A stretch of 58,149 nucleotides of DNA from Clostridia bacterium (GTDB taxonomy: Bacteria > Bacillota > Clostridia > Oscillospirales > Acutalibacteraceae): NCBI GenBank assembly GCA_024404115.1, contig JAKSQM010000009.1:1-58149 (forward strand), read 5' to 3'. Positions 467 to 25,118 of this stretch are shown here, one piece after another. The notes beneath the pieces are model-generated. The model saw only the letters and a program-made list of their open reading frames with translations. It was not told where the DNA came from and made no database searches. The translations under genes and the position numbers were made by a program. Position 1 is the first letter of the stretch. The number at the start of each line of letters is the position of its first letter.

Positions 467-484
467 ATGAAAGGACGAAGTCAA

Positions 485-1675
485 ATGAACGCACTTAATA
501 AAAAGACAGTTGAAGATCTTAGCGTAGCAGGCAAAAAAGTTCTCGTTCGCTGCGATTTCAATGTACCTCTTGCAGACGGCAAAATCACAAGCGATAAGAG
601 AATCGTTGCTTCTCTTCCCACAATCCAGTACCTTGTAAAGAACGGCGCAAAAGTTATTCTTTGCTCACATCTCGGCAGACCCAAGGGCGAGTTCAAACCC
701 GAATTTTCTCTTGCTCCTGTTGCAGTACGCCTTTCAGAGCTCCTCGGTCAGGAAGTTAAAATGGCTAAGGATGTTGTTGGCGAAAGCGCACAGGCACTTG
801 CTGCTGACCTTAAAGATGGCGAAGTTATGCTTATCGAAAACGTTCGTTTCCATAAAGAAGAAACAAAGAACGATCCCGAATTCTCAAAGAAGCTCGCTTC
901 TCTTGCAGAGCTTTATGTAAATGATGCATTCGGTTCAGCTCACAGAGCTCACAGCTCAACAACAGGCGTTGCAGATTATCTCCCTGCTGCTTGCGGTTAT
1001 CTTATTCAGAAAGAAATCGAGTTCATGGGCACAGCTCTTGCTAATCCCAAGAGACCTCTCGTTGCTATCCTCGGCGGCGCAAAGGTATCAGATAAAATCG
1101 GTGTTATCACAAACCTCCTTGAGAAATGTGATACAATCATCATCGGCGGCGGTATGGCTTATACATTCATGAAGGCTCTCGGTTACGAAATCGGCACATC
1201 TCTTCTTGAAGCAGACAGAGTTGAAGACGCAAAAGCTATGATGGAAACAGCAAAGGCAAAGGGCGTTAAGTTCCTTATCCCTGTTGACAACAAAGTTGGT
1301 AAAGAGTACGCTCCTGACACAGAAGCTATGGTTATCAACAGTGATGAAATCCCCGAAGGCTGGATGGGTCTTGACATCGGTCCTAAGACACAGGAGCTTT
1401 TTGCAGATGCTATCAAAGGCAGCGGCACAGTAATCTGGAACGGACCTATGGGCGTTTCTGAGTGGGAAAACTTCGCAGCTGGCACAATCGCAGTTGCAAC
1501 AGCAGTTGCAGAGTCAGGCGCAATCTCAATCATCGGCGGCGGCGATTCAGCAGCAGCAGTTCAGAAGCTTGGCTTCGCTGATAAGATGTCTCACATCTCA
1601 ACAGGCGGCGGCGCTTCTCTTGAATTCCTCGAGGGCAAAGAGCTTCCCGGTATCGCAGCTCTTAACGACAGATAA
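485..1675 (+). CDS. pgk: Phosphoglycerate kinase
   Basis: Transfers the acyl phosphate of 1,3-bisphosphoglycerate to ADP, making ATP and 3-phosphoglycerate in cytoplasmic glycolysis. The 396-residue product has the full family length. It shows the N-terminal RCDFNVPL motif, the SHLGRPKG substrate loop, GGAKVSDKI, and the C-terminal nucleotide-binding segments GPMGVSEWE and [13 protein letters not shown]. The ATG at 485 is chosen over the in-frame ATG at 467 because AAAGGA (470-475) sits 9 nt upstream of it. The upstream ATG has no Shine-Dalgarno sequence. The gene is the first of a three-gene glycolytic operon and lies 26 bp before tpiA. No gap gene is present in the window. Confidence 0.97.
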
Positions 1676-1701
1676 TTATATTTCTGAAAGGACTTGTAAA
1701 T

Positions 1702-2469
1702 ATGAACAAACAGCTTCGTAAAGCAATTATCGCAGGCAACTGGAAGATGAACAAAACTCCTGCTGAAACAACAGCTCTCATTAACGATATGAAGCCCCTC
1801 GTTGCAGATGCAGATTGTGAAGTAGTTCTTTGCGTTCCTTTTGTTGACATCCCCGCAGCAGTTGAGGCAGCAAAAGGCTCAAATATCAAAATCGGTGCAG
1901 AGAATGTTCATTTTAAAGACAGTGGCGCATTCACAGGCGAAATTTCAGCTGATATGCTCCTTGAGCTTGGCGTTGAATATGTTGTAATCGGTCATTCTGA
2001 AAGAAGAACTTACTTCGGCGAAACAGACCAGACAGTTAACCTCCGCACACTTAAAGCTCTTGAAAAAGGACTTAAACCAATCGTTTGCGTTGGTGAAACA
2101 CTTGAGCAGAGAGAGCTTGGCTACACAGAAACTCTCCTTAAATTCCAGACAAAGATGGCTCTTACAAATGTAACAGCTGACCAGCTCAAGAATGTAACAA
2201 TCGCTTATGAGCCTGTATGGGCAATCGGCACAGGCGTTACAGCAACAGCAGATCAGGCAGACGAGGGCAACGGCTTTGTCCGTGCAGCTATCGCAGAGGC
2301 ATATGGCGCAGATGCAGCTGAGGGCGTAACAGTTCAGTACGGCGGCTCAATGAACGCTAAAAATGCTGATGAGCTTGTAGCAAAAGTTAATGTTGACGGC
2401 GGTCTTATCGGTGGTGCTTCACTTAAAGCTCCCGATTTCGCAGCAATCGTTAAAGCAGCAAGCAAATAA
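1702..2469 (+). CDS. tpiA: Triosephosphate isomerase
   Basis: Interconverts dihydroxyacetone phosphate and glyceraldehyde 3-phosphate. The 255-residue TIM barrel carries all expected catalytic residues: N13 and K15 in GNWKMNK, H98 in IGHSERR, and E170 in YEPVWAIGTG. The phosphate-binding loop YGGSMNAKN lies near the C-terminus. GAAAGGA at 1686-1692 precedes the ATG at a normal distance. The gene sits between pgk and gpmI in the same direction and is probably co-transcribed with them. Confidence 0.97.
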   Translation: MNKQLRKAIIAGNWKMNKTPAETTALINDMKPLVADADCEVVLCVPFVDIPAAVEAAKGSNIKIGAENVHFKDSGAFTGEISADMLLELGVEYVVIGHSERRTYFGETDQTVNLRTLKALEKGLKPIVCVGETLEQRELGYTETLLKFQTKMALTNVTADQLKNVTIAYEPVWAIGTGVTATADQADEGNGFVRAAIAEAYGADAAEGVTVQYGGSMNAKNADELVAKVNVDGGLIGGASLKAPDFAAIVKAASK

Positions 2470-2484
2470 TTAAATAAAATTCCG

Positions 2485-2508
2485 CAGGCTCGTCATATGA
2501 CGAGTCTG
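2485..2508 (+). other. Intercistronic palindrome between tpiA and gpmI
   Basis: CAGGCTCGTCAT (2485-2496) is followed directly by ATGACGAGTCTG, a 12-bp inverted repeat with one G-U pair. No U-run follows it. It is more likely an mRNA-stabilising or processing hairpin inside the operon than a terminator. Confidence 0.6.
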
Positions 2509-2526
2509 TAAAATTAGGTGATAAAA

Positions 2527-4041
2527 ATGAAAAAACCTGTAGTTTTATGTATTATGGACGGCTTCGGCATCAACCCTGGCGCAGAGGGTAACGCAATTGA
2601 AGCTGCAAAAACTCCGAATCTTTCAAAGCTTTTTAAAGAGAATCCCTGCACTGCAATCGGTGCATCAGGTCTTGATGTAGGTCTCCCCGACGGTCAGATG
2701 GGCAACAGTGAGGTTGGTCATACAAATATCGGCGCAGGCAGAGTTGTATATCAGATGCTCGTTAAGATTTCAAAGTCAATTAAAGACGGCGACTTCTTTG
2801 AGATTGAAGCTCTTAAATCAGCTGTTGAAAATTGCAAAAAGAATGACACCGCTCTTCATCTTATCGGACTTCTTTCAGACGGTGGTGTTCACAGCCATAT
2901 TGAGCATCTTTTCGGACTTCTTGAAATGGCAAAGAAAGCAGACCTTAAAAAGGTTTATGTTCACTGCATTATGGACGGCAGAGATGTTTCTGTAACATCA
3001 GGTAAAGGCTTCGTTAAAGACCTTGAAGATAAAATGGCAGAGCTTGGTGTTGGTAAAATCGCATCAATTTCTGGCAGATATTACGCAATGGATAGAGACT
3101 TCGCTTGGGACAGAGTTGAAAAAGCATATTCAGCAATGGTTTATGGCGAAGGACTTCAGAACGAAAACGCAGTTGAGTCAATGGCTCTTTCTTATGAAAA
3201 CGGTGTAACAGATGAGTTCATCATCCCCACAGTTGTTGATAAGAACGGCACAGTTAAGGCTAATGACAGTGTTGTATTCTTCAACTTCCGCCCCGATAGA
3301 GCACGTCAGATTACAAGAACATTTGTTGACGAGAGCTTTGACGGCTTTGAGAGAAAGAACGGCTTCTTCCCCCTCAACTATGTTTGCATGACACAGTATG
3401 ACGAAACAATGCCCAACGTATCAGTTGCATTCCCTCCCGAAGAGCTTAAAATGACAATGGGCGAGTATGTTGCAAGCAAGGGCATGACACAGCTTCGTAT
3501 CGCTGAAACACAGAAGTATGCTCATGTAACATTCTTCTTCAACGGCGGCGAAGAGAAAACATTCGAGGGCGAGGACAGAATCCTTATTCAGTCTCCCGAT
3601 GTTCCCACATTCGATTTACAGCCCGAAATGAGCGCATATCCTGTTTGTGATGCTGTTTGCGAGCAGATTAAATCAGGCAAGTATGATATGGTTATCCTCA
3701 ACTTCGCTAACTGCGATATGGTTGGTCATACAGGCGTGTTTGAGGCAGCAGTTAAGGCTGTTGAAGCTGTTGACGAGTGCGTTGGCAAGGTTGTTGACGC
3801 AGCACTTTCAATGGGCGGCGCAGTTTGCATCACAGCTGACCACGGCAATGCAGACAGAATGATTGGTGATGACGGCAAGCCTTTCACACCTCATTCAACA
3901 AACCCCGTTCCTTTCTGCGTAGTTGGCTATGATTGCGCTCTTAAAGATACAGGCAGACTTGCAGATATTGCACCCACAATGCTCACAATTATGGGACTTC
4001 CCCAGCCAGCAGAAATGACAGGCGAAAGCCTTATTAAATAA
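2527..4041 (+). CDS. gpmI: 2,3-bisphosphoglycerate-independent phosphoglycerate mutase
   Basis: Converts 3-phosphoglycerate to 2-phosphoglycerate using two Mn ions and a phosphoserine intermediate. The 504-residue product matches the usual iPGM length. It has the N-terminal CIMDGFG metal site (D11), the nucleophile S61 in GNSEVGH, the HSHIEH and HCIMDGRDV motifs of the transferase domain, and the C-terminal TADHGNAD and PHSTNPVPF metal-binding motifs. The ATG at 2527 lies 7 nt after AGGTG. An in-frame GTG nine bases earlier is part of that Shine-Dalgarno region. The gene is last in the operon and a terminator follows 12 bp after the stop. Confidence 0.96.
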   Translation: MKKPVVLCIMDGFGINPGAEGNAIEAAKTPNLSKLFKENPCTAIGASGLDVGLPDGQMGNSEVGHTNIGAGRVVYQMLVKISKSIKDGDFFEIEALKSAVENCKKNDTALHLIGLLSDGGVHSHIEHLFGLLEMAKKADLKKVYVHCIMDGRDVSVTSGKGFVKDLEDKMAELGVGKIASISGRYYAMDRDFAWDRVEKAYSAMVYGEGLQNENAVESMALSYENGVTDEFIIPTVVDKNGTVKANDSVVFFNFRPDRARQITRTFVDESFDGFERKNGFFPLNYVCMTQYDETMPNVSVAFPPEELKMTMGEYVASKGMTQLRIAETQKYAHVTFFFNGGEEKTFEGEDRILIQSPDVPTFDLQPEMSAYPVCDAVCEQIKSGKYDMVILNFANCDMVGHTGVFEAAVKAVEAVDECVGKVVDAALSMGGAVCITADHGNADRMIGDDGKPFTPHSTNPVPFCVVGYDCALKDTGRLADIAPTMLTIMGLPQPAEMTGESLIK

Positions 4042-11274: not shown

Positions 11275-14200
11275 ATGAAAAGATCATTAAAGGTATTGTC
11301 CCTTATCTTCACAATTGTGTTGTTGATAGGAACAATATCTGTCGGAATGTCAGCATATGCTGTTTCCGATGACGTTATAGGCGATTACGATTTTGAAATC
11401 ACCAATGTTTATAAAGACATTGACTGGTCAAACGTAGGCGTCTATAAGGGCGAAACTCATGTACATACAGTACGAAGCGATGCCGATACCGAAATTGACG
11501 ATATGATTCTTGAATACTATCGTTTAGGTTTCGATGCATTAGCTCTTACTGACCATGGTACCATCAACTACGGCTGGACTAACGATCAGTCCCGTATCGC
11601 AATTTTTGAGTACCAGTACTTTGTACATGGACCAACAGACGAGCTTAGTGAAGCTCAGTACAAATCTGTTATCACTGGTACAAGAGAAAGAAGTATCAAC
11701 TCTGGCAAGGGTATGATGGAGATTCCTCTCGGTATCGAGCTTAACGGTATGTCAACCATTAAGTGCCATATTAACGGATTTTATGCTGACGCTGACCACG
11801 GCGGAATTGGTATGGCTGAAGACTGGCCTCTTAACGCAGTTGTTAAAAACTACAATGCAGGCGGCTTCACACACATCAACCACGTCGGTGAATGGTCAGA
11901 GGGTAACGATGACGCTTCAGTTTACTCAGCATCATGGCTCACAAAATTCGCCTCAATTTATGAGAATTACTGCCCCAACCGTGGTGGTAGAGGTTCAGCT
12001 GCTCAGACAGCATGGATGAGTTCTCATAAGGGCGAAGCAGGTTGTATCGGTATGGAGCTTGTTAACACAGCAGATAGCCGTACTCACAACGACCGTCGTT
12101 TCGTTTACGATGAAATCCTTATGCGTCTTGCTCCTAAGGGCATCAACGTTTTCGGTTTCTGCGAAGATGACGCTCATGAGTATTCAGACTGCGACAGAAA
12201 CGCACAGTTCTTCCTTATTAACAAAGATAAGGATGTATCAATTAACGAAGCAAAATACAATGCTTCAAACAAAACTTCTGGTGAAAACAGTGCATACAAA
12301 AATGATAATAATGACCCAATAGATAAGGTTCAGAATTATTACAGAGATGCAATGTTCTATGGTGAGTTCATCACTTCATCAAAGAATGCTAAAAACAGCT
12401 ACGAGCTTGGTAACGGCTTCTCAGCAAGCGGTCCATATCCCACTGTTTCAAACATTCAGATTATTGATGAAAAGAACCAGATCGCAGTTACTTTTAAGGA
12501 TGCTACCAAAATTCGTATGGTTGCAGACGGCGAAGTTATTGAAACTGTAAGAACTTCCACATCAAGTCAGACAGTTATTTTCGACCTTAACAGAAACGAA
12601 GCAAAAATCAACAGCTATGTTCGTATCTATTTAACAGGCGCAGGAGGAATTACATTCCTTCAGCCATTCCTTGTTAAAAAGGTAGAATCAACTAAAACAA
12701 CAGTTCAGTTCCTTACTCCCACAACAGATACAGAAGTTGTTGTTAAGGATTCAACTGGTGCAATTGTAAGCGACAGCTACAAGTATGAGAACTTCTATTA
12801 TGTTCTTCCCGCTGGCAATTACACATACACAGCTTCAAGACGAGGCTTCGAAACAAAAGAGAATGTTCCATTCACTGTTACTGAAGGTGATTCTCAGAAG
12901 ATTCCTGTAGAGCTTGAAGAAAAGCATGACGTTTCATACGCTTACTTCTATGCTCCCGAAACAATTTATCTTGACCCAAGCGATAATCAGACTTTCGCTA
13001 AGTATATCGACAGAGAAAATGCAGTAAACGGTGCTCTTCATAATGAAGCTCAGACAGCTGGTAACATTTTCTTCTATCGTGAAGGTGCAACAGACCTTGA
13101 GCTTCAGTATGATGTTATCGAGGGTAAGCTTCTTGAAAGCAATAGCGTTAAGGTTACATCAACAAAAGCAAGCGCAACAACACTTGCCACACAGGTTACT
13201 GCTGGTAAGGTTACATCACGCGTTGCAAGCAACGAGCATGTTCTTATTAAATGGACAATGAAATATACATATAATGATATACCTTACGAGGCATATACAT
13301 ATTCTTATGTATATTCAGTTCCATCAGATAACAACTCAATCCTTGCTGCAGGTGGTTTTGCAAAAACAAAGAAAAACATTACAACGTGGGCACATTCAAC
13401 AATGTATGTTGCTGCATCACTGTATGTAACAGGTATTCAGAAGCTTGTAACGGTTGGTTCAGACAGTAATGTTAGTTACAAATATGCTCCAAATACAGGC
13501 TATACATTTGGTGGAGAAGATACCAATCCTATAATCAGTGGTACTGGTATGCGTTTCAAATCAAACGATTCAAGCGGTGGTTCAGCAGAGGCTGAGGTAA
13601 ATAACACCGATAACGCTTATATCTATGCCGATAGAAGCCGTATCAATAACTGGTCAGAAATTCCTTATTTCGCAGTTGGCCTTGACCTTAACGCTGCTGT
13701 TGAAGTTAACGATAAGAACAACGCTTCTGACGCTGCTGTAAGACTTGGCTTTGACTCATCTATCAATGATGTAAAGAATAATGTGGCTGCAAAGAGAAGC
13801 AACCTTCTTTACGCTCTTGAGTTCTCAAGCCAGACCAACTTTGCAGAAATAGTTGACTATAATATTTCTGACGGTGCTAATTATAACACAAGAAGATCAG
13901 GCACACAGTCAAACAGCCTTGCAGGTATTGGTACAAAACGCCTTTATCTTTCAGATAATGATGTTTCATACAAGAAGCTTGTTTATCCTCTTCCCGCAGC
14001 ATCTGCTCAGGAATCAGTAATCCCGATTTCAGCATATGTTATCGGTTATAAGGAAGGTCGTTCAGACCATACAGCTCTTGAGGTTAATGTAACAGTTGTT
14101 AACATTAACAAGGACTCACTGAGAAAGCAGTTTAACGATACAGTTAAAGAAAGCTTCCAGAGAAACTGGTTCGCATCAGACGCTGACTGGGACACATATC

Positions 14201-17200
14201 AGGCAACAGTTGTTAAGGCAGCTAAGCTCCTTGGTAACCCCGTTGCAGAGGCTGAAGAGCTTGAAACAGCCGTACAGGATCTTCAGGACATCGTAGATAA
14301 CTTTGTTCTTAAAACAGGTACAATGGTTGTTAAGCATTACTGGGCTAAGGGCGGTAATACCGGTCTTATCTATTCAGAAGCACCTGTTGTTTATGAATAC
14401 AGTAATGACCTTTCAGCTAACGCAGCCGCAATCTCAGGCTACACATATGCAAATAAATTTGAGTGCTATTCAGAAGGTCAAATGATTGAAGAAGGCACAA
14501 CAGACTTCGACCTTGCATTTGCAGAAAGACCCAACTATGAGTGGAGATTCTATTATACTCCCAACGAGTATAATGTAACTTACGATACAATGGGCGCAGG
14601 TGCAATCAGCAGCTATGCTGCAAAAGCATCTTACGGTCAGAGCTACACTGTTTCAAGTGAAACTCCTCAGAAGACTGGTTATACATTCGATGGCTGGTAC
14701 CTTGATAATACTCAGAAGACATACTCAGCAGGTGCAACATTCAATTGGAACTATGCTGGCGATGGCGAATTCAAGGCACAGTGGACATCAAATAAATATA
14801 CCGTTTCTTATGATTTCAATGGCGGCAGCAGTGTTTCAATCCCCGATGATTACAAAACAGTATCATTCGGCGAAACATATTCAGTAATTTCAGCTGTTCC
14901 CACAAAGGCTGGTTATGCATTCGCAGGCTGGCAGCTTAACGGCGGTAATGTTTATACTTCAGGTTCAAATGTATTCTGGGATATAGCCGCTAATTCAACA
15001 TTCGTTGCTCAGTGGGAAGTTGCAGAATTCAAAGTAACATTTGATAAAGTTGCAGCAGACGCATCACTTTCATTCGACGAAAAGACCGTTATGTTTGATG
15101 TACCTTACGGAACACTTCCTGAGGCAACAAGAAACGGTTACACAGTTGAGTGGTATGCAGACCCAAGCTATGCAACAGGCACAAAAGTAACAGCAAGCAC
15201 AAATGTTGCAATCAATGCTAACCATACTCTTTATGCAAAGTGGACTCCCATTGATTACACAATCACTTATAACCTTAACGGTGGTGCTGTTGCAGGTAAT
15301 AACCCCACAACATACAACATCGAATCAGGCGCAATCGCACTTAAAGCTCCTACAAGAGCAGGTTATAAATTCATCGGCTGGACCAGCCCTGACTTCGCAG
15401 GCATGAAGACCAGCTACACAATCCCCGCAGGCTCAACTGGCGCAAAGACTTTCACAGCTAACTGGGAACTCAGCGGTTATACAATTAACTATGACCTTGA
15501 CGGTGGTCAGAACAACGCAAACAACCCTTCATCTTATAAAGTTTCTGATACTGTTACACTTTCAGCTCCCACAAAGAAAGGCTATCGCTTCCTTGGTTGG
15601 ACTGGCGACAACGGCACAGTTCCTGAGGCAACAGTAACAATCGCTGCTGGCTCAACAGGTGAGAAGAGCTACAAAGCAAACTGGGAAATTGAAACCTACA
15701 CAATCACTTACGATTATGACGGTGCAACAACAACTCCCACAAATCCCTCATCATATACTGTAAACACAGCAACATTCACTCTTAATAACCCCACAAAATT
15801 CGGTTATACATTCAGTGGATGGACTTGTAACAATGATGCTCTCAGCGGCAAGAATGTTACAATCACAAAGGGCGCTGTAACAGGCAACCTTACATTCAAA
15901 GCAATCTGGGCAGAGAATGGTGCTCACACCGTTACTTACGTTCTTAACGGCGGTAGCGTTGAAGGCTCTAACCCCGCATCCTATAAGGATGGTCAGACAT
16001 TCTCAATTGTTAACCCCACAAGAAATGGTTACACATTCGCAGGTTGGGTTAAGACAATTGGCTCAGCAAGCGAAGCTGCAACAAAATCTGCAAAGATTCT
16101 TGCAACTGATGCAGAAGACATCACATTCACCGCAACATGGACTAAAGTTGATTACACAATCAGCTATAATCTTAACGGCGGCAGAATCGCATCTGCTCAG
16201 ACAAATCCCACAAGCTACAACGCAGAGTCAGCAGCAATCACACTTGTTGCTCCTGTAAAAGCAGGTTACACATTCAACGGCTGGACTGGCACAGGCCTTT
16301 CATCAGCAACAAAGGTTGTAACAATCGAAACAGGCTCAACAGGCAACAGAAGCTATGCTGCTTCATGGAAAGCAAACGAATACACAATCACCTATAACCT
16401 TAACGGTGGTGCAGACGCAGGCTTCAGAAAGAGCTACACATCAGCAACAACTGCAACAATCGGCGCTCCTGTAAGAGCTGGTTACACATTCACAGGCTGG
16501 TCAGTAGCATTCACAAACTTCACATGGAACAGCGGCACAATTTCATCTGACGGCAAATTCGCATCAAAGAGCAATTCCTTCTATTCAGACGGTATCGTTC
16601 TCAGAAGCGGCAACACTTATAATCTCACAGGTTCAGTTTCAGGCGTTAAGATGTATGCTTTCGATAAGAGCGGCGCTCTCCTCGGCACATACACAACAAG
16701 CATCACTCCCTCTAAGGATTGCGTTGTTTACATCGTAGCTGATAATCAGAGCTCAGCAGATTCACTTAGAACAACTAAGCTTGAACTTGCAGGCGCAACT
16801 CCCGCAAGCTTTGCACTTACAGCTGAAACAGCCGATAGCTTCGGTAACGCAGGTAACATGGAAATGACCGCTAACTGGTCAGATGATACCTACACAATCA
16901 CTTATGTTTACGATTCAACATTAAGCTGGGGCGTTGACAGCGAAGGCAAACCTCTTGCTGACCCCAACCCCACAACTTATAAGTATTCAAGCAGTGATAT
17001 TCTCCTCAAGAACCCCTCAAAGACTGGTTACACATTCACAGGTTGGGAATACAACGGAGTTGTTTCTCCTGCAACAGTAATTAAGTCAGGTTCAACAGGC
17101 AACAGAACTTACACCGCTGTAATCGCAAGAACAGAGTACAATATCACTTATACTGGTATTGACGGTGCAACAGTTTCTGGCAACCCCGCAACATATAATG

Positions 17201-20200
17201 TTGACAGCAGCGATATTACACTCAATAACCCCACAAAGACAGGTTATGTATTTGAAGGCTGGGTAGGCACAGGTGTCAGCACAGCATCAAAGAGTGTTAA
17301 GATTGCAAAGGGTTCAACAGGCGATAGAACCCTCATCGCAACATGGACTCCCGTTGCTTACGCAATTTCTTATAACGGAATTGAAGGCGCAACAGTTTCT
17401 AACCCCAACAGCTATACAATCGAAACAGATACATTCACCCTTAATAATCCCACAAAGGCTGGTGCAGTGTTCACAGGCTGGGAAGATGAAACAGGCGCAA
17501 CTCTTGCAAATGTTACAATCAATAAGGGCACAACAGGCAACAAGTCATACACAGCTGTTTGGTCTTACACAGACTACACAATCACATATGACCTTGCAGG
17601 CGGTACAGAAGCAACTAACCCCACAGCTTATAAGGTAACAAGTGCAGATATTTCACTTAATGCTCCTACAAAAGCAGGTTATACCTTCACAGGCTGGACT
17701 GGTACTGGTCTTGACGCTAAGACAACAAGTGTTGTTATTAAGTCAGGTTCAACCGGTAACAGAAATTACACTGCTAACTGGCAGGCAATTAACTACACAA
17801 TCTCTTATGACCTTGCAGGCGGTCAGGTTGCACAGAATGCTAACCCCACTTCCTACAATATTGAGTCAGCAACAATCACCCTTGTAAATCCTGTTAAGGC
17901 AGGCTTTAAGTTCGCAGGCTGGACTGGTACTGGTTTCAAAGAGCCCACAATGGAAGTTACAATTCCTCACGGCTCAAAAGATAACAGAGCTTACACAGCA
18001 ACATGGGTTGAGGATGGTTACACAATCACATACACTGGTCTTGAAGGCGCAACATTAAGCAGTGAAAACAAGACATTCTACACTGTAGCAACTAACGATT
18101 TCACTCTTAATAACCCCGAAAAGAGAGGCTATACATTTGAAGGCTGGTCAGGTACTGGTATCTCTGGCTCAGGTATTTCAAAGACAGTTACAGTTCTCAA
18201 GGGTTCAACAGGCAACCGTTCATACAAAGCAAACTGGAGCCTTGATGAATATACAATCACATATGACTTCGCAGGCGGCTCAGAGGGCGGTATCAAGAAC
18301 CCCAGAAGCTATAATGTAAACTCAGCTCCCTTCTCACTTTATGCACCTGTTAAGACAGGCTACAATTTCGTAGGTTGGGAAAGTGATTATTACGATGGCA
18401 CACTTGCAACTGTTACAATCGACCCCAACGAAACAGTAGGCGATAAGAACTTCGTAGCTGTATGGTCAACAGGTAACTACACAATCACACTTGATACTGA
18501 CGGCGGTACATTACCCTCAGGTCAGGCATCAACAATTAACTATAACTACGATACAGCAACATTCACAATCAAGAATCCCACAAAGGCTGGTTATGATTTC
18601 GCAGGTTGGACTGGTACAGGTCTTACAACCAAGACTGAAACACTTATAATCAGCAAGGGTTCAACAGGCGACAGAGCATACAAGGCAGTATGGATTTCAA
18701 GCAGCCAGAACAACATTACATACAACCTTAACGGTGGTGTTGTTGAAGGCAGCAAGAACCCAGAATCATATGTAACAAACTCTGGTTCAATCATTTTGAC
18801 CAACCCCACAAAGGAAGGTTACAAATTCAGCAAGTGGGTTGTTGAACAGGAAAGCACAACAGGTATTGTTGAGCTTCTCAACAGCGGCAAGTCAGCTACA
18901 ATCAACACATCATTCGGCGGCTCAGCTTATATCTCAGCAAGCTGGACTCCCACATCTTACAGAATCACATATAACCTTAACGGTGGTACAAACTCAAGCA
19001 CTAACCCCAAGACATATAATATTGAAAGTGCATTCACACTGAGTAATCCCACAAGAACAGGTTATACTTTCAAGGGATGGACTGGTACAGACCTTGATGA
19101 ATCTAAACCCACAACTAACGTTTCTGTTGCTAACAAGACTGGTAACAGAACATACACAGCACATTGGGGCGAGGCTGAGTACACAATCACTTACAACTAT
19201 AACGGTGGTTCAACAGCAGAGCCTAACCCAACAAGCTTCAATGTTCTTACACCTTCATTCACACTTAACAATCCTGTTAAGGCAGGTTACACATTCACAG
19301 GCTGGACTGGTTCAAACGGCACAACACCTCAGAAGACTGTTACAGTAATAGCAGGTTCATCAGGAGCTAAGAGCTACACCGCTAACTTTGCAATTGAAAC
19401 TTACACAATTACTTACTTCGGTGTTGACAAAGATCCTCAGACCTACACTGTTGAAAGTGCAGACATCACTATTGCAAATCCCACAAAGGCTGGTTACGAA
19501 TTTATGGGATGGGAGCATAAGGATGCAATCGATCCTGAAAAGGATATAGTTGTTCGCCATGGCTCAACAGGCGATAAGGAATTCACAGCAATCTGGAAAG
19601 AAGCAGAGTACACAATCACTTATGTACTTAATGGCGGTGAAGTTTCAGGCGTTAACCCCGAAACATACACAATTGAGTCATCAAAGATTACTCTTCTTAA
19701 TCCTACAAAGTCTGGTTATGAATTCTTAGGCTGGGATACTTCAGACGGCAAGACAAATCAGCTTCTCGTTGAAATCCCCAAGGGCTCAACTGGCAACAAG
19801 ACATTCACTGCAAAGTGGGACATCGCACCTTATAAGATCAGCTATCAGGGAATCCCTGCAGATATAGTTGGATCTCTCAAGCTTCCCACAGCTTATACAG
19901 CAGATGCAAGCGTTACAATTAAGAATCCTGTAATGCCTGGTTATACATTTGCTGGCTGGACTGGTACAGGACTTAAAGAAGCTACAAAGGATCTTGTAAT
20001 TCCTGCTGGTTCATCAGGCAACAGAATTTATAAAGCAACATGGACAATGGACGATTACACAATCACAGTTGACTATAACGGCGGTACCGCAACAACAACT
20101 GTTCCTGTAACATACACTGTTGACAGTGCAGATATTGACCTTGGAATCCCCGTAAAAGAAGGCTACACATTCACAGGATGGACTGGATCAAATAGCACAA

Positions 20201-21156
20201 CACCTGAAAAGGATGTAACTATCAAGACTGGTTCTGTTGGTGATAAGTACTTCAAAGCAAACTGGGTTGAAGGCTCAGCAGGCGATATGCATAAGTTCTA
20301 CTTCAAGGGCTATGATAATGCTAAGCTTTATGTAACCGAAAAAGTTGAAAATGGCGTTAAGACTCATTATGATTACATTGAGGTTCCTGTTGGAACACCT
20401 GTAATTCTTGATCCTGCAAGCATCGACACAACAGTTGGTTATAAGATTACTGGCTGGGATATCGACCTTAAGGATCCTCAGTATGTAAATAGTTATGAGG
20501 ATGTTATTGTTCACGCAAAATGCAGCTATGGTGATGAAACATACACTGTTGTTGCTAACGGAACAGAACCTTTAACAAAGACCTGCTCTCAGTATGAAAA
20601 GGTAACAGTTACAACTGACTATTCACAGGGTAACAGCTTGTTCAGCTACTGGGTAGAGGCTAAGGTTGGTCCAGATGGCAGCATGCAGCCCGGCGCAATC
20701 GTAAGCTATTACAGAAATTACACATTCTATGCACATGCAGATATTGTTCTTATGGCTGTTTACGGCGCAAGCTCAGGCGATGTAAGAGCTACAACAAGAG
20801 TTACAAAGATTGAGAATTATGATCCTAACTATGACTGGATCACAATCAATACCGAAAGAAGTATTGCTACAGAGTTGACACTTGTTCAGCACGGTGCACT
20901 CTTCACAACAGAGGCATCATCTGGCACAGATAGCGGACTTGTTATTGGCGGCAGCAAGGTTTATAAAGCAGTTGCTAAGACAAAGAATCTTGCTGGTAAC
21001 TGGGCAGTTTCAATCCCGAACCCATACTCATTCGGCACAGGCAAAACTTTCTATATCCGTTCATTCGTTACAGTTGCAGATGAAAACGGTGTTAAGACAA
21101 CTAAATACGGTGAAATCAAGACATATGTAAACAATGAGGATATAACACCCAACTAA
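11275..21156 (+). CDS. Giant secreted PHP-domain protein with about 24 InlB-type B repeats
   Basis: A 3293-residue exported protein. Residues 1-29 form a Sec signal peptide ending MSAYA. Residues 57-305 form a PHP-type metallophosphoesterase domain with all metal-binding motifs: H62 and H64 in THVHT, D93 and H94 in LTDHG, E155 in LGIELNG, H200 and H203 in FTHINHVG, D299 and H301 in EDDAHEY. A mixed beta region follows, then a helical FIVAR-like stretch near 1015-1070. About 24 InlB/Listeria-Bacteroides B repeats (Y-T-I-T-Y-x-x-x-G-G ... GY-x-F-x-GW ... A-x-W) fill 1098-2997, and a C-terminal domain of about 300 residues ends the protein. No LPxTG, dockerin, S-layer or choline-binding anchor is seen. 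An adhesin or surface phosphoesterase role is inferred. It is the first gene of a three-gene unit. Confidence 0.9.
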   Translation: MKRSLKVLSLIFTIVLLIGTISVGMSAYAVSDDVIGDYDFEITNVYKDIDWSNVGVYKGETHVHTVRSDADTEIDDMILEYYRLGFDALALTDHGTINYGWTNDQSRIAIFEYQYFVHGPTDELSEAQYKSVITGTRERSINSGKGMMEIPLGIELNGMSTIKCHINGFYADADHGGIGMAEDWPLNAVVKNYNAGGFTHINHVGEWSEGNDDASVYSASWLTKFASIYENYCPNRGGRGSAAQTAWMSSHKGEAGCIGMELVNTADSRTHNDRRFVYDEILMRLAPKGINVFGFCEDDAHEYSDCDRNAQFFLINKDKDVSINEAKYNASNKTSGENSAYKNDNNDPIDKVQNYYRDAMFYGEFITSSKNAKNSYELGNGFSASGPYPTVSNIQIIDEKNQIAVTFKDATKIRMVADGEVIETVRTSTSSQTVIFDLNRNEAKINSYVRIYLTGAGGITFLQPFLVKKVESTKTTVQFLTPTTDTEVVVKDSTGAIVSDSYKYENFYYVLPAGNYTYTASRRGFETKENVPFTVTEGDSQKIPVELEEKHDVSYAYFYAPETIYLDPSDNQTFAKYIDRENAVNGALHNEAQTAGNIFFYREGATDLELQYDVIEGKLLESNSVKVTSTKASATTLATQVTAGKVTSRVASNEHVLIKWTMKYTYNDIPYEAYTYSYVYSVPSDNNSILAAGGFAKTKKNITTWAHSTMYVAASLYVTGIQKLVTVGSDSNVSYKYAPNTGYTFGGEDTNPIISGTGMRFKSNDSSGGSAEAEVNNTDNAYIYADRSRINNWSEIPYFAVGLDLNAAVEVNDKNNASDAAVRLGFDSSINDVKNNVAAKRSNLLYALEFSSQTNFAEIVDYNISDGANYNTRRSGTQSNSLAGIGTKRLYLSDNDVSYKKLVYPLPAASAQESVIPISAYVIGYKEGRSDHTALEVNVTVVNINKDSLRKQFNDTVKESFQRNWFASDADWDTYQATVVKAAKLLGNPVAEAEELETAVQDLQDIVDNFVLKTGTMVVKHYWAKGGNTGLIYSEAPVVYEYSNDLSANAAAISGYTYANKFECYSEGQMIEEGTTDFDLAFAERPNYEWRFYYTPNEYNVTYDTMGAGAISSYAAKASYGQSYTVSSETPQKTGYTFDGWYLDNTQKTYSAGATFNWNYAGDGEFKAQWTSNKYTVSYDFNGGSSVSIPDDYKTVSFGETYSVISAVPTKAGYAFAGWQLNGGNVYTSGSNVFWDIAANSTFVAQWEVAEFKVTFDKVAADASLSFDEKTVMFDVPYGTLPEATRNGYTVEWYADPSYATGTKVTASTNVAINANHTLYAKWTPIDYTITYNLNGGAVAGNNPTTYNIESGAIALKAPTRAGYKFIGWTSPDFAGMKTSYTIPAGSTGAKTFTANWELSGYTINYDLDGGQNNANNPSSYKVSDTVTLSAPTKKGYRFLGWTGDNGTVPEATVTIAAGSTGEKSYKANWEIETYTITYDYDGATTTPTNPSSYTVNTATFTLNNPTKFGYTFSGWTCNNDALSGKNVTITKGAVTGNLTFKAIWAENGAHTVTYVLNGGSVEGSNPASYKDGQTFSIVNPTRNGYTFAGWVKTIGSASEAATKSAKILATDAEDITFTATWTKVDYTISYNLNGGRIASAQTNPTSYNAESAAITLVAPVKAGYTFNGWTGTGLSSATKVVTIETGSTGNRSYAASWKANEYTITYNLNGGADAGFRKSYTSATTATIGAPVRAGYTFTGWSVAFTNFTWNSGTISSDGKFASKSNSFYSDGIVLRSGNTYNLTGSVSGVKMYAFDKSGALLGTYTTSITPSKDCVVYIVADNQSSADSLRTTKLELAGATPASFALTAETADSFGNAGNMEMTANWSDDTYTITYVYDSTLSWGVDSEGKPLADPNPTTYKYSSSDILLKNPSKTGYTFTGWEYNGVVSPATVIKSGSTGNRTYTAVIARTEYNITYTGIDGATVSGNPATYNVDSSDITLNNPTKTGYVFEGWVGTGVSTASKSVKIAKGSTGDRTLIATWTPVAYAISYNGIEGATVSNPNSYTIETDTFTLNNPTKAGAVFTGWEDETGATLANVTINKGTTGNKSYTAVWSYTDYTITYDLAGGTEATNPTAYKVTSADISLNAPTKAGYTFTGWTGTGLDAKTTSVVIKSGSTGNRNYTANWQAINYTISYDLAGGQVAQNANPTSYNIESATITLVNPVKAGFKFAGWTGTGFKEPTMEVTIPHGSKDNRAYTATWVEDGYTITYTGLEGATLSSENKTFYTVATNDFTLNNPEKRGYTFEGWSGTGISGSGISKTVTVLKGSTGNRSYKANWSLDEYTITYDFAGGSEGGIKNPRSYNVNSAPFSLYAPVKTGYNFVGWESDYYDGTLATVTIDPNETVGDKNFVAVWSTGNYTITLDTDGGTLPSGQASTINYNYDTATFTIKNPTKAGYDFAGWTGTGLTTKTETLIISKGSTGDRAYKAVWISSSQNNITYNLNGGVVEGSKNPESYVTNSGSIILTNPTKEGYKFSKWVVEQESTTGIVELLNSGKSATINTSFGGSAYISASWTPTSYRITYNLNGGTNSSTNPKTYNIESAFTLSNPTRTGYTFKGWTGTDLDESKPTTNVSVANKTGNRTYTAHWGEAEYTITYNYNGGSTAEPNPTSFNVLTPSFTLNNPVKAGYTFTGWTGSNGTTPQKTVTVIAGSSGAKSYTANFAIETYTITYFGVDKDPQTYTVESADITIANPTKAGYEFMGWEHKDAIDPEKDIVVRHGSTGDKEFTAIWKEAEYTITYVLNGGEVSGVNPETYTIESSKITLLNPTKSGYEFLGWDTSDGKTNQLLVEIPKGSTGNKTFTAKWDIAPYKISYQGIPADIVGSLKLPTAYTADASVTIKNPVMPGYTFAGWTGTGLKEATKDLVIPAGSSGNRIYKATWTMDDYTITVDYNGGTATTTVPVTYTVDSADIDLGIPVKEGYTFTGWTGSNSTTPEKDVTIKTGSVGDKYFKANWVEGSAGDMHKFYFKGYDNAKLYVTEKVENGVKTHYDYIEVPVGTPVILDPASIDTTVGYKITGWDIDLKDPQYVNSYEDVIVHAKCSYGDETYTVVANGTEPLTKTCSQYEKVTVTTDYSQGNSLFSYWVEAKVGPDGSMQPGAIVSYYRNYTFYAHADIVLMAVYGASSGDVRATTRVTKIENYDPNYDWITINTERSIATELTLVQHGALFTTEASSGTDSGLVIGGSKVYKAVAKTKNLAGNWAVSIPNPYSFGTGKTFYIRSFVTVADENGVKTTKYGEIKTYVNNEDITPN
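14566..20265 (+). repeat. Block of about 24 B-repeat coding units
   Basis: Within the giant gene, about 24 units of roughly 65-80 codons repeat in tandem, covering residues 1098-2997. Short exact words such as GGCTGGACTGGTAC recur many times, so recombination between units is plausible. Units vary most between the GG and the next aromatic residue. One unit (from about 16496) is interrupted by an inserted segment of roughly 100 codons. Confidence 0.85.
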
Positions 21157-21175: not shown

Positions 21176-21391
21176 ATGATATATGAAAAACCAGCAATCA
21201 GATTTCAAAAATTTCATACAGATCCCTTCCTCGATCAGAATGTATTAAGTAGTACTCCTACTGATATGGGCGGCGACATTTTTGGCGGCGACGATGATAA
21301 TGACGATTGGGAGTTCGAGCCAACAGCTTATGGCTTCAACGGTACAATCTCATTAGGTCCCGACGGTGTCGGCGGCTGGTTTAACGGCTAA
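21176..21391 (+). CDS. Small acidic YEKP protein of unknown function
   Basis: A 71-residue protein, too short for family assignment by eye. It starts MIYEKPAIRFQKF, then a serine/threonine-rich linker, GGDIFGGDDDNDDWEFEP, and a glycine-rich C-terminus ending GVGGWFNG. It has no signal peptide, no membrane segment and no cysteine. The YEKP start resembles leader motifs of some ribosomally made peptides (YxxP in lasso-type leaders), but no maturation enzyme or recognition domain is nearby. The strong GGAAGGAG (21158-21165) 10 nt before the ATG, the 19-bp gap from the giant gene, and typical codon use support translation. A Ca-binding, chaperone-like or precursor-peptide role is only a guess. 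Confidence 0.7.
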   Translation: MIYEKPAIRFQKFHTDPFLDQNVLSSTPTDMGGDIFGGDDDNDDWEFEPTAYGFNGTISLGPDGVGGWFNG

Positions 21392-21459: not shown

Positions 21460-22422
21460 TTGGAAGAACAGTTACGCACCGAAACAAGAAATATGGTCGA
21501 TATTTTTATTGGTCTTATGCTTGTGCGTGTTTATGAATACTTCTTTTACAAAAATCATATGATTCCTACGCTGTCTTTCATTTCTTATGGCGTAGGTCTT
21601 CTGTTTATTTTTTTATTTAACCGCAAGCATTGTTGGTCGCTGAGCGATTACGGCATCCGTGGCTCAATGAACAGCACCTTTTACGAAGTAATTACTCCTG
21701 CGCTTATATGGATTGGCTCTGCGGCGTTAATTATCGTTCCAGAATTCATTTATTGCCGTGCAACAGGCGCAGAAAAACCGTATTTTGATTTTGTGTGCTT
21801 TAATCAGCAGGTTAATTACATCCTTTCAAAAGCGGATGCAACCATACTTATTTCGTGGACGCTTATTGGCGCAATAGTGTGCCTTTTGCGTGCTTTGTTC
21901 CTTGAGTTCTATTTCAGAGGTCTGTGCTTCGGCGTATTAAGAAAGAAAACAAACTTCTATGCCTGCAACATATTAACTTCATTGTTTTATGCGCTGTGGT
22001 TTATGATTGTTCCTGTGAGAGCGTTCATCTTTTCTTCAGCGGAATATAAACCGAAAGTTATCGGCTTGATGGCAATTTTCTTTGTTGCGCAGTTCCTGTT
22101 TGCTTACAGGCAGGGATATGTAAGGCTTGTTTGCAACACAATCTGGCCCTGCGTGATTTCAACATTTGCATATAATTTCTTCACTTTCAATTTCATCCTT
22201 AACGGTATTGGTGGCGAGAAATTTAGTAGATTTGCAGATTATATCCGCTGGGCGGTTATCAACCTTATTGCACTTCTTTTTACCTTCCTCTATTGTAAGA
22301 TGATGAAAAAGAAGTTCCCGCCACCAAAGCCAACACCTGAAGAGGAACAGCTTCTCAGAGAGATGTATGACGATTCCTTCGGCGAGGAATATGAAATTAC
22401 CGCAGAACAGAATAAAGATTAA
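21460..22422 (+). CDS. CPBP-family membrane protein with degenerate protease motifs
   Basis: A 320-residue protein with about eight membrane segments and an acidic, proline-containing cytoplasmic tail. The region around residues 140-255 resembles the CPBP (CaaX protease and bacteriocin-processing) intramembrane protease fold. The motifs are damaged. Motif 1, normally EExxxR, reads L148-E149-FYF-R153. Motif 2, normally FxxxH, reads F176-YAL-W180. The third motif lacks its histidine (TFAYN). It is therefore probably inactive as a protease and may act as a binding or immunity-type protein. The start is TTG at 21460, set by AAAGGAAGG 8 nt upstream. It follows the 71-residue gene and closes the operon. 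Confidence 0.7.
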   Translation: MEEQLRTETRNMVDIFIGLMLVRVYEYFFYKNHMIPTLSFISYGVGLLFIFLFNRKHCWSLSDYGIRGSMNSTFYEVITPALIWIGSAALIIVPEFIYCRATGAEKPYFDFVCFNQQVNYILSKADATILISWTLIGAIVCLLRALFLEFYFRGLCFGVLRKKTNFYACNILTSLFYALWFMIVPVRAFIFSSAEYKPKVIGLMAIFFVAQFLFAYRQGYVRLVCNTIWPCVISTFAYNFFTFNFILNGIGGEKFSRFADYIRWAVINLIALLFTFLYCKMMKKKFPPPKPTPEEEQLLREMYDDSFGEEYEITAEQNKD

Positions 22423-22595: not shown

Positions 22596-22799
22596 TTATT
22601 CAACTACTTCATATCCTGCGTCTGTAACAGCCTTTTTAAGCACATCATAGTCAACATCATTAAGAAGCTCAACTGTTGCTGTTTTTGCTTCAAGGTCAAC
22701 CTCAACCGCCTTTACTCCGTCAACGCCCTCAAGTGCTTTCTGCACGTGAGCCTTGCAGTGCTGGCACATCATGCCCTCAACCTTTAAAACTTTTACCAT
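22596..22799 (-). CDS. Possible standalone CopZ copper chaperone from an internal start
   Basis: Inside copA, in the same frame, AAAGGAG (22808-22814, minus strand) lies 8 nt before an ATG at 22799. Starting there gives a 67-residue protein, MVKVLKVEGMMCQHCKAH and onward, that is a complete HMA fold with the size and MxCxxC site of CopZ. Either copA and copZ were once separate and lost the stop between them, or both the fusion and the free chaperone are made from one gene. The free product is inference. Confidence 0.5.
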   Translation of the reverse strand: MVKVLKVEGMMCQHCKAHVQKALEGVDGVKAVEVDLEAKTATVELLNDVDYDVLKKAVTDAGYEVVE

Positions 22800-25118
22800 A
22801 TCAATCTCTCCTTTTTCAACAATCTCTGTTTTTTCGTTTGTTTCAATATTGTCTGCCTTGAATTTTCTGAGCCTTAATGCGTTCAGCACCACACAAAGCG
22901 AGCTTAAACTCATCGCCAATGACCCAATCATGGGGCTTAAAAGAATTCCAAAAACAGGGTAAAACACACCTGCCGCCAGCGGAATCCCAAGCGCATTATA
23001 AAAGAATGCCCAGAAAAGATTCATCTTAATATTTTTCATAACCGAGCGGCTGAGCTTGATTGCCGTAACCGCATCGCCGAGGGAGCTTTTCATAAGCACC
23101 ACATCAGCCGATTCAATGGCAATGTCCGTGCCTTTGCCGATTGCAATGCCCACATCCGCTCTTGTTAGGGCAGGTGCATCGTTTATGCCGTCGCCAATCA
23201 TAGCCGTCTTTTTGCCCTGTTCCTGCAATTTGCGGATTTCCCGCTCCTTGTCCGCTGGCATCACATCAGAAATAACATTCTGTATGCCCGCTTCTTTGCC
23301 AATCGCCTGTGCAGAAAGAGAGTTGTCGCCTGTGAGAAGCACCGTGTCAATGCCCATTTTACTAAAATCAGAAACCGCCTTAATGCTCGTTTCCTTAATG
23401 GTGTCCGCAACGGCAATTATGCCAAGAAGCTCGTTGCCCTTTGCAAAAATCAGCGGAGTTTTACCGCTTGATGCAAGGTTTTTCACCACATCAGCTTTGT
23501 CAAAATAAATGCCGTTTTCTTCAATATATTTTTCGTTGCCGCCAAGAATAACACAGCCGTCAACCGTGCCTTTTACACCTCGACCGCTGACCGATTCAAA
23601 ATCATCCACCGCCAAAAGCTTTAAATTACGCTCTTTCGCCTTGCTGATAACAGCTTTCCCAAGCGGATGCTCGCTTTTGCTTTCAAGTGAGCCTGCAAGG
23701 GTGAGCAGCTTATTTTCGCTTACCTTAAATGGAATAATATCCGTAACGGACGGCTCACCGTTTGTTACCGTACCTGTTTTGTCAAGCACAACAGTGTTGA
23801 TTGAATGAAGCGTTTCAAGGCTGGTGGCAGATTTCACAAGAATCCCTAACTCCGCCGCCTTGCCAGTGCCTGCCATAATGGCAACAGGCGTTGCAAGTCC
23901 CAGTGCGCAGGGGCAGGAAATCACAAGCACCGAAACAGCGCAGTTGAGTGCAAATTCAAAGCCCTTCCCTGCAACGAGCCAAGCAATCAGCGTAATCACC
24001 GCTATGCCCATAACCACAGGCACAAAAACACCGCTGATTTTGTCCGCAAGCCGTGCAATTGGAGCCTTTGAGCTGCCAGCCTCGTCAACCATTCTGATTA
24101 TCTGCGAAAGGGTGGTGTCGTCGCCCACCTTGCTTGCCTTGAATGTAAAGCTTCCGCTTTTGTTGATTGTGGCAGAAATCACCGTGTCGCCCTGCTTCTT
24201 GCTCACAGGGATGCTCTCGCCAGTAATTGCGCTCTGGTCAACATATCCGCTGCCCGAAATCACTTCGCCGTCAACAGGCACGCTCTCACCGGGGCGGATA
24301 ATCACCACATCACCAACTGCAATTTCTTCTGTTGCAACAGAAATTTCCTTGCCGTTTCTTAGAATGTTTGCCCTTTTTGGCGCAAGTGCCACAAGCTTTT
24401 CCAGCGTTTCAGAGGTCTTTGCCTTTGAGCGTGTTTCAAGGAATTTGCCCACCGAAACAAGTGTCAGAATCATTGCGCCCGATTCAAAATACAGCGAATG
24501 TGCGTATCTGTGAAGCAGGTGCATATCGCCCGTTTTCACCGCCTGCATCATTCTGTATATGGCAAAAATCCCGTAAAGCACCGATGCCGAAGAGCCAAGT
24601 GCCACAAGCGAATCCATATTCGGCACACGCTTTGTCAACGCCTTGAATCCCGAAATAAAGAATTTTTTATTTAAAATCAGCACGGGAATTGTAATTAAAA
24701 ACTGCGTGAATGCTGAAATCAGCGCATTTTCTTCGCCTTTGAAAAAAGAGGGGAGGGGAAGTCCCAACATCCCGCCCATAGCAATATACATCAGCGGAAT
24801 AAGAAGCGTGATTGAAAAAATCAATCGCCATTTCATATTTTCGCTGTTTTTTTCTTCTGTTTGTCGGTGGCTGTCCCACTGCATTTTGGATTTTGAATCC
24901 TTCACCGCTTCATCCTCTGCGTGGTAGCCGATTGCGTTTACACTCTCTTTGATTTGCTCCGCTGTCAGCTTCGTTTCATCAAAAACAACCACCATTCTGC
25001 CCGTCAGCAGGTTTACATCAACACTTTCTGTGCCCTCAAGCCTTGCCACTGTCTTTGTAACATTCGCCTGGCAGGCGGCGCAGGTCATACCGCTTACTGT
25101 GAATTTTTTATTTGTCAT
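22596..25118 (-). CDS. copA: Copper-translocating P-type ATPase with fused C-terminal CopZ-like domain
   Basis: An 840-residue Cu(I) exporter that pumps copper out of the cytoplasm with ATP. An N-terminal HMA domain has C13 and C16 in GMTCAAC. Membrane segments surround the CPC site (402-404). Other motifs are TGES (299-302), phosphorylated D446 in DKTGT, SEHPLGKA (HP at 484-485) and GDGINDAPA (642-650). After the last membrane helix and a linker, residues 774-840 form a complete second HMA domain with GMMCQHC, which is unusual. Most CopA proteins have HMA domains only at the N-terminus and use a separate CopZ chaperone. GGGGTGA precedes the ATG. A consensus promoter lies upstream. No CsoR or CopY regulator gene is adjacent. 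Confidence 0.95.
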   Translation of the reverse strand: MTNKKFTVSGMTCAACQANVTKTVARLEGTESVDVNLLTGRMVVVFDETKLTAEQIKESVNAIGYHAEDEAVKDSKSKMQWDSHRQTEEKNSENMKWRLIFSITLLIPLMYIAMGGMLGLPLPSFFKGEENALISAFTQFLITIPVLILNKKFFISGFKALTKRVPNMDSLVALGSSASVLYGIFAIYRMMQAVKTGDMHLLHRYAHSLYFESGAMILTLVSVGKFLETRSKAKTSETLEKLVALAPKRANILRNGKEISVATEEIAVGDVVIIRPGESVPVDGEVISGSGYVDQSAITGESIPVSKKQGDTVISATINKSGSFTFKASKVGDDTTLSQIIRMVDEAGSSKAPIARLADKISGVFVPVVMGIAVITLIAWLVAGKGFEFALNCAVSVLVISCPCALGLATPVAIMAGTGKAAELGILVKSATSLETLHSINTVVLDKTGTVTNGEPSVTDIIPFKVSENKLLTLAGSLESKSEHPLGKAVISKAKERNLKLLAVDDFESVSGRGVKGTVDGCVILGGNEKYIEENGIYFDKADVVKNLASSGKTPLIFAKGNELLGIIAVADTIKETSIKAVSDFSKMGIDTVLLTGDNSLSAQAIGKEAGIQNVISDVMPADKEREIRKLQEQGKKTAMIGDGINDAPALTRADVGIAIGKGTDIAIESADVVLMKSSLGDAVTAIKLSRSVMKNIKMNLFWAFFYNALGIPLAAGVFYPVFGILLSPMIGSLAMSLSSLCVVLNALRLRKFKADNIETNEKTEIVEKGEIDMVKVLKVEGMMCQHCKAHVQKALEGVDGVKAVEVDLEAKTATVELLNDVDYDVLKKAVTDAGYEVVE

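Follow-up and report, generated by a model that had tools for sequence, protein, structure and literature searches.

A predicted exported PHP metallohydrolase on an InlB-repeat stalk, with two co-retained downstream genes, in gut Clostridia

The CehA/McbA family name covers carbamate hydrolases, and CehA and McbA themselves act on non-phosphoester bonds (carbamate, amide or ester). CPBP-family proteins can serve in bacteriocin immunity or processing; SpdC lacks catalytic residues, and the clients of the Spd proteins bear YSIRK signals. SpdA, SpdB and SpdC, which belong to the CPBP/Abi family, are reported to take part in the display of surface proteins by S. aureus (PMC5854430), and the catalytic motifs of CPBP proteins are EExxxR and HxxxN (PMC11980579). 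Among PHP enzymes, the phosphodiesterase Sb-PDE of Sphingobium sp. TCM1 has been purified, carries a cleaved signal peptide and, according to its authors, is possibly extracellular (PMC5460133).

Here we describe a locus of an uncultured member of the Clostridia, contained in a 58,149-nt stretch of DNA (contig JAKSQM010000009.1, hereafter ‘the window’), in which an ORF on the forward strand (11275–21156, ATG start) encodes a protein of 3293 amino acids, hereafter ‘the giant’. Its sequence supports an anatomy in which a signal-peptided PHP head with a full predicted metal site is carried on an InlB-repeat stalk with no recognised anchor. Residues 1–30 (11275..11364, +), MKRSLKVLSLIFTIVLLIGTISVGMSAYA, form a putative Sec-type signal peptide, judged by eye as was its cleavage site, which bears out the export signal proposed in an earlier note on this DNA; this region shares 41–48% identity with four PHP relatives, and 36–40% with two further surface proteins of the same genome, at their N-termini. 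The head (residues 31–380; 11365..12414, +) is assigned to the CehA/McbA-like PHP metallohydrolases on the strength of PF02811, a sub-threshold NF038032 match, a profile match and ligand conservation. It is followed by two small regions (residues 381–480 and 481–560; 12415..12954, +) present in all 8 long PHP relatives compared, the second of which has a weak, sub-threshold likeness to CarboxypepD_reg (Pfam, E 0.014), and by an APETIYL-type linker region (residues 561–1085; 12955..14529, +) that is also present in long relatives. The C-terminal region (residues 3068–3293; 20476..21153, +) is common to the giants that share the three-gene arrangement described below, and has weak matches in three more large secreted proteins encoded by the same genome.

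Between linker and C-terminus lie 23–24 InlB B-repeats of ∼75 residues each (14569..20259, +, at E ≤ 1e-5). Flg_new (InlB B-repeat, PF09479) matches the giant over its cut-off (E 6e-163, 529.6 bits) in 24 stretches (maximum E 1), and 23 GW repeat marks, 18 of whose 22 spacings measure 69–79 residues, occur beyond residue 1000, in keeping with the figure of about 24 repeats given previously. Most repeats are 60–82% identical in DNA to the reference copies (60% being the identity floor of the tool), with a short stretch of up to 90%; this divergence of the copies rules out an assembly artefact or stutter. No LPxTG-type sorting end was found at the C-terminus, which is polar and is preceded only by an internal IPISAY, and Pfam lists no SLH or wall-binding domain in the giant, in agreement with the lack of a cell-wall anchor reported earlier; the genome itself encodes three sortases. 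It also encodes a third InlB giant (L224:2027-13543, 3838 aa), which matches parts of the linker (residues 924–1103 at 27% identity, E 1e-14; residues 560–610 at E 0.004 only), has no listed PHP match and is not followed directly by a small or CPBP gene.

Relatives of the head were collected by a genome scan that yielded 60 loci, 55 of which held 60 head-matching ORFs (the ORF call gave none at L117, L130, L133, L138 and L141); five of these ORFs were removed (three contained unread bases, one was a short match and one a duplicate), and the 55 left were aligned with the giant in 56 rows. H62, D69, D93, H94, E155, H165, H203 and D299 are kept in 56/56 aligned sequences, H64 in 55/56 and H301 in 52/56. 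Eight of these residues had been named as PHP metal ligands in the earlier note; H200, also on that list, is a histidine in just 12 of the 56 heads and is no ligand of the family, and the invariant D69 and H165 had been overlooked. The nine-ligand set that results (H62, H64, D69, H94, E155, H165, H203, D299 and H301), assigned by alignment and motif order rather than by structure, is present in the window and in 51/56 aligned sequences, and fits the nine-ligand trinuclear site described for PHP enzymes (PMC5460133). The predicted PHP-type metal site of the giant is real, and is fuller than had been stated.

Comparison with family models and solved structures points the same way. PF02811 matches residues 61–111, with a score that is under its 26.4-bit cut-off for the whole protein (24.6 bits) and over it for the isolated 408-aa N-terminus (28.3 bits); at E ≤ 1e-3 it is found in 50/56 aligned sequences. 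The 56-row family profile retrieves the solved PHP chains 9etk (E 1e-10), 2anu, 7ug9 and 3e38 (E ∼2e-5) from the PDB, and the GHFNA and NHPG motifs of 3e38 align with the H165 and H203 regions of the head; D299 and H301 gave no convincing alignment to any solved chain, and a PDB search with the head as a single sequence gave no match.

Which bond such a site would cleave is a separate matter. At E ≤ 1e-3 no other NCBI model matches as many heads as NF038032 (CehA/McbA), which is found in 56/56; this raises the possibility that the head, like CehA and McbA, hydrolyses a carbamate, amide or ester rather than a phosphoester. The window giant, however, scores 31.1 bits against the curated NF038032 cut-off of 80 and is therefore not filed as a member, while a nucleoside bisphosphate phosphatase model matches 49/56 and an RNase model 44/56 heads at E ≤ 1e-3; in addition, the exported PHP enzyme Sb-PDE is, by its published account, a phosphodiesterase. 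A hydrolase of some other bond is also disfavoured, by a biased count, by the genes found near the relatives: metallophosphoesterase-like ORFs make up 18 of 293 within 3.5 kb of the PHP genes and 5 of 265 farther away at the same loci (Fisher p 0.017, which is too optimistic because the three queries were picked for their recurrence near PHP genes and the loci are related), and occur at 12/55 loci. N-terminal pieces of the queries matched, in Pfam, the purple acid phosphatase N-domain (E 4e-15) and Metallophos (E 2e-4), the third giving no match. At L126, L131 and L150, from related genomes, two such genes precede the PHP gene and one follows it in a same-strand run of purple acid phosphatase-like, phosphoesterase-like, PHP and metallophosphoesterase-like genes. 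No run of this kind occurs at the giant's own locus, such neighbours belonging to short forms, and we treat the neighbourhood as a weak lead to function. Taken together, we consider action on another bond somewhat unlikely.

By its sequence, the predicted head is one of a large CehA/McbA-like group in gut Clostridia whose members range from 436 to 3415 aa. At E ≤ 1e-6 the head is found in 26 of 98 genomes (the giant's own and 97 relatives), including 18/18 of the genus, and most relatives begin, by eye, like signal peptides. Complete head-bearing forms comprise short proteins of 436–584 aa, forms with dockerin-like ends of 626–686 and 1759–1840 aa, and giants of 3293–3415 aa. The 1759-aa paralogue is termed dockerin-like because its Dockerin_1 score, 17.5 bits, lies below the 22.9-bit cut-off, the remaining dockerin-like forms being judged by eye; in the giant's own genome three cohesin matches are listed, one of them over cut-off. 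PHP-InlB giants of 3410 aa, each with 29 GW marks, occur in other taxa (L100:9610-19842 and L103:9881-20113), with none of the partner genes described below within ∼840 nt downstream. All 60 scanned loci come from metagenome-assembled or uncultured Clostridia, for many of which goat, deer, sheep, horse or buffalo is named, and neither a plasmid collection nor one viral-contig scan contained head relatives.

The history of the head differs from that of the rest of the protein. Over residues 31–510, identity between the giant and the same genome's dockerin-like paralogue is 55–69% in the window genome and 64–78% in G005, as against 44–49% between the giants of the window genome and G005 and 44–56% between those of G017 and G005. 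This pattern reverses near residue 511 in G005 and near residue 870 in the window genome, and the two dockerin-like forms remain more alike (58, 53, 46 and 36%) than either is to its own genome's giant. Trees of eight rows (unrooted, the tested groups having been named after an 18-row tree was viewed) agree: for residues 115–510, a single clade of the four giants that share the three-gene arrangement is rejected (p-AU 4e-9), as is one of the three dockerin-like forms (p 1e-55), whereas for residues 600–1105 the same four giants fall on one side (100/100) and the dockerin-like forms group at 75/80. The UBA1425 giant, which is one of the L100/L103 pair and lacks the arrangement, sides with the dockerin-like forms in the tail tree, and its branch in the head tree is long. 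A purely vertical history of the head is rejected by this conflict; the simplest reading is that the head was exchanged between giant and dockerin-like loci at least once, independent duplication with tail replacement being an alternative that we do not favour as the simplest. One head activity would then be presented in two ways, on the giant and on the dockerin-like paralogue, and the exchange hints that selection keeps the head alike, not the stalk.

The metal site survives this exchange, which bears on whether the head is an enzyme at all. InlB repeats are typical of adhesins, and five short members of the family have an altered ligand (H301 in four, H64 in one), so that the head could be pictured as a catalytically idle binding module, an adhesin tip whose metal site is kept for structure. 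Such a role is quite improbable in view of the complete nine-ligand site in every long form of the alignment, its persistence through head exchange and the omega of 0.16 between close giants.

Directly behind the giant lie two genes on the same strand. The first (21176–21391, +), 19 nt past the giant's stop and preceded by a GGAAGGAG-type ribosome site, encodes a 71-aa small protein of YxKP type, and the second (21460–22422, +; TTG start) a 320-aa CPBP/Rce1-like membrane protein (PF02517, 28.3 bits, cut-off 22.4). The order giant 3' end, small YxKP gene (56–71 aa) and CPBP gene is kept in 5/5 genomes of the genus that carry this giant; the small gene starts 11–19 nt after the giant, and the gap from it to the CPBP gene is 62–77 nt. 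Close CPBP orthologues (E < 1e-170) occur in 5 of the 98 genomes (G000, G005, G009, G013 and G017, own included), the next best match having an E of 2e-15, and strong small-protein matches (E < 1e-27) occur in the same five, with an additional, weaker match in G017 (1.5e-5). Among 398 sampled family genomes (135 genera, with just part of this genus included), 3 encode close CPBP proteins (E ≤ 1e-30), all of this genus, and none of the other 395 does. The head of the G009 giant is on a separate contig, and the first residues of the G017 giant lie beyond the contig end; these pieces were not joined.

The surroundings of the trio vary. Upstream of the giant is a FGGY kinase gene in the window (Pfam), and a YdjC/ChbG-like gene, recognised by eye, in G005 and G013 and beside the head piece of G009; the genes downstream differ between the window, G017 and G005/G013. 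The trio is thus retained in at least two genomic settings. Where measurable, all three genes are under purifying selection, with omega (NG86, in which several dS values near 2–3 are unreliable) of 0.16–0.25 for the head (3 pairs), 0.075–0.21 for the small gene (4 of 10 pairs with finite dS) and 0.04–0.11 for the CPBP gene (2 of 6). Because the sample comprises five genomes of one genus, three of them close relatives, with many assemblies incomplete, one might suppose that three functionally unrelated genes are adjacent by chance; the retention of the trio in different settings and the occurrence of its CPBP and small proteins in the same 5 of 98 genomes make this very improbable. Elsewhere in the window, 22596–25118 is a P-type metal ATPase ORF with two HMA stretches and, by eye, a second CXXC-type domain at the C-terminal end, and 467–4041 is a glycolytic run (phosphoglycerate kinase, triosephosphate isomerase and phosphoglycerate mutase; Pfam).

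Two other orthologues of the CPBP protein also exceed the PF02517 cut-off of 22.4 bits, at 24.0 and 27.1, and a PDB search with the CPBP profile found no chain. EExxxR and HxxxN are absent from 5/5 orthologues, which read LExxxR and [TN]xxxN, and the four orthologues aligned (alignment A1) have no histidine at the expected place of the middle motif. Lacking these motifs, the trio protein is unlikely to be a standard glutamic protease. The first glutamate has also been lost in the genus's other CPBP-like proteins, which stand in a different gene setting and partly keep the histidines, so the loss is not special to the trio and is partly older. These other genes were dropped as members of the unit, most of them adjoining another conserved gene.

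The small protein belongs to a wider set. A DNA pattern for M-x-Y-x-K-P-E-x, with the second base of the last codon fixed as T, matched at 15 places in 10 of the 98 genomes, as against 1 for a reversed control pattern; the window's own small protein, with A for E, falls outside this count. Nine of the 15 immediately follow a long ORF, at −4 to 16 nt, namely four trio copies, those behind three proteins of the giant's own genome, G008:C1 and G007:C146; of the remainder, four precede a 232–235-aa protein, another sits among unread bases where its contig ends, and one is apparently unrelated. Both non-trio long proteins scanned, from the nine that precede YxKPE peptides, contain LRR repeats. The three own-genome surface proteins (L049:7576-11583, L050:7804-11298 and L051:2686-4722) have the identical end ..PSFMSVLMSILNAVMALVQAIIALF, and 14 nt behind each is a 58-aa MKYEKPEV peptide that is nearly the same in all three; the one surface protein scanned has BspA-type LRR. 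In four genomes of the genus, RiPP-like cassettes lie behind large secreted proteins (L198, L199, L200 and L201, for example L200:3068-6520), with peptides that end SIG[SN]DLIIG and a 232–235-aa protein without Pfam match (one scanned).

All four of these YxKPE clusters have PqqD matches, an ABC exporter and an S24-like peptidase (the last two from Pfam in one and by eye in the rest), and their peptides share the start motif of the small protein. The small protein might then be a precursor of RiPP type, with the CPBP protein providing for its immunity or export and the giant being a co-controlled secreted product, not a client; PqqD, present in 17 of 18 genus genomes and twice in the giant's own, could act on the small protein from elsewhere. 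No YxKPE peptide was seen, by eye, among the ORFs listed at the two own-genome PqqD loci (L217 and L218). Against a RiPP pathway, the window has no PqqD, exporter, modifying enzyme or other maturation gene beside the trio, the small protein ends ..WFN[GL] and not ..SIG[SN]DLIIG like the PqqD-linked peptides, and most YxKPE peptides directly follow a long ORF; we regard it as unlikely. We think it doubtful, if a shade less so, that YxKP proteins and motif-less CPBP proteins form a dedicated display system in which a RiPP-leader-like peptide guides, modifies or anchors the giant by way of a CPBP scaffold.

The broader reading that we prefer, and to which we give close to an even chance, is that the giant is a Sec-exported surface metallophosphoesterase with dedicated display partners, the small and CPBP proteins. 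The Sec pathway would export the giant, the head would hydrolyse extracellular phosphoesters, most likely phosphodiesters, and the B-repeats would serve as a stalk that holds the head off the wall; the two partners would have a part in exporting, positioning or retaining the giant, and would stand in for a sortase motif or dockerin. The two downstream genes, which the earlier note had passed over, are accordingly named here as a candidate answer to the question of how the giant is retained. Such a surface phosphoesterase would work in a setting rich in phosphate-containing glycans, teichoic acids and nucleotides. A role of the partners in placing or holding the giant would amount to sortase-independent display in uncultured gut Clostridia, with a class of small proteins whose genes come directly after those of surface proteins, and, should the YxKPE peptides behind other large surface-protein genes of the genus act likewise, sortase-motif-free handling of surface proteins would be wider still.

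Among described systems, Sb-PDE comes close to the giant, by its published description, in having a PHP site and a Sec-type signal peptide; it is a 441-aa precursor that gives a 413-residue catalytic protein with about two zinc per enzyme (PMC5460133). In contrast to the giant it is free-standing and has no stalk, and it is not known to have a small-protein or CPBP partner. PDB 3e38, a two-domain PHP-like protein whose HxH start also aligns, has 343 aa and no repeats, and scores weakly (E 2e-5). The CehA/McbA model NF038032 is matched by every aligned head, but the window giant is far below its cut-off. Internalin-type proteins share the Flg_new repeats, but the giant has an enzyme head, no leucine-rich Pfam match and no LPxTG. 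SpdA, SpdB and SpdC are likewise CPBP-family proteins tied to surface proteins, but they occupy separate loci with distinct locus tags (PMC5854430). The myxosortase MrtX is a CPBP-family sorter of surface proteins, yet has EExxxR and HxxxN, neither of which occurs in the trio CPBP protein, and the giant lacks a hydrophobic C-terminal tag of the kind described with MrtX (PMC11980579). Among the papers searched, none combines an InlB B-repeat with a PHP domain, one has a PHP domain together with a dockerin, in a transcriptome table, and the matches listed include no description of the trio or of the head exchange. The novelty that the earlier note had implied for an exported PHP enzyme is not supported, in view of the published Sb-PDE and the many signal-peptide-like starts among the 55 relatives; since Sb-PDE is published and the head comes from a large group, its ‘new surface enzyme’ is partly right. 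Exported PHP enzymes are known, and what is new is the InlB stalk, the partners and the sharing of the head.
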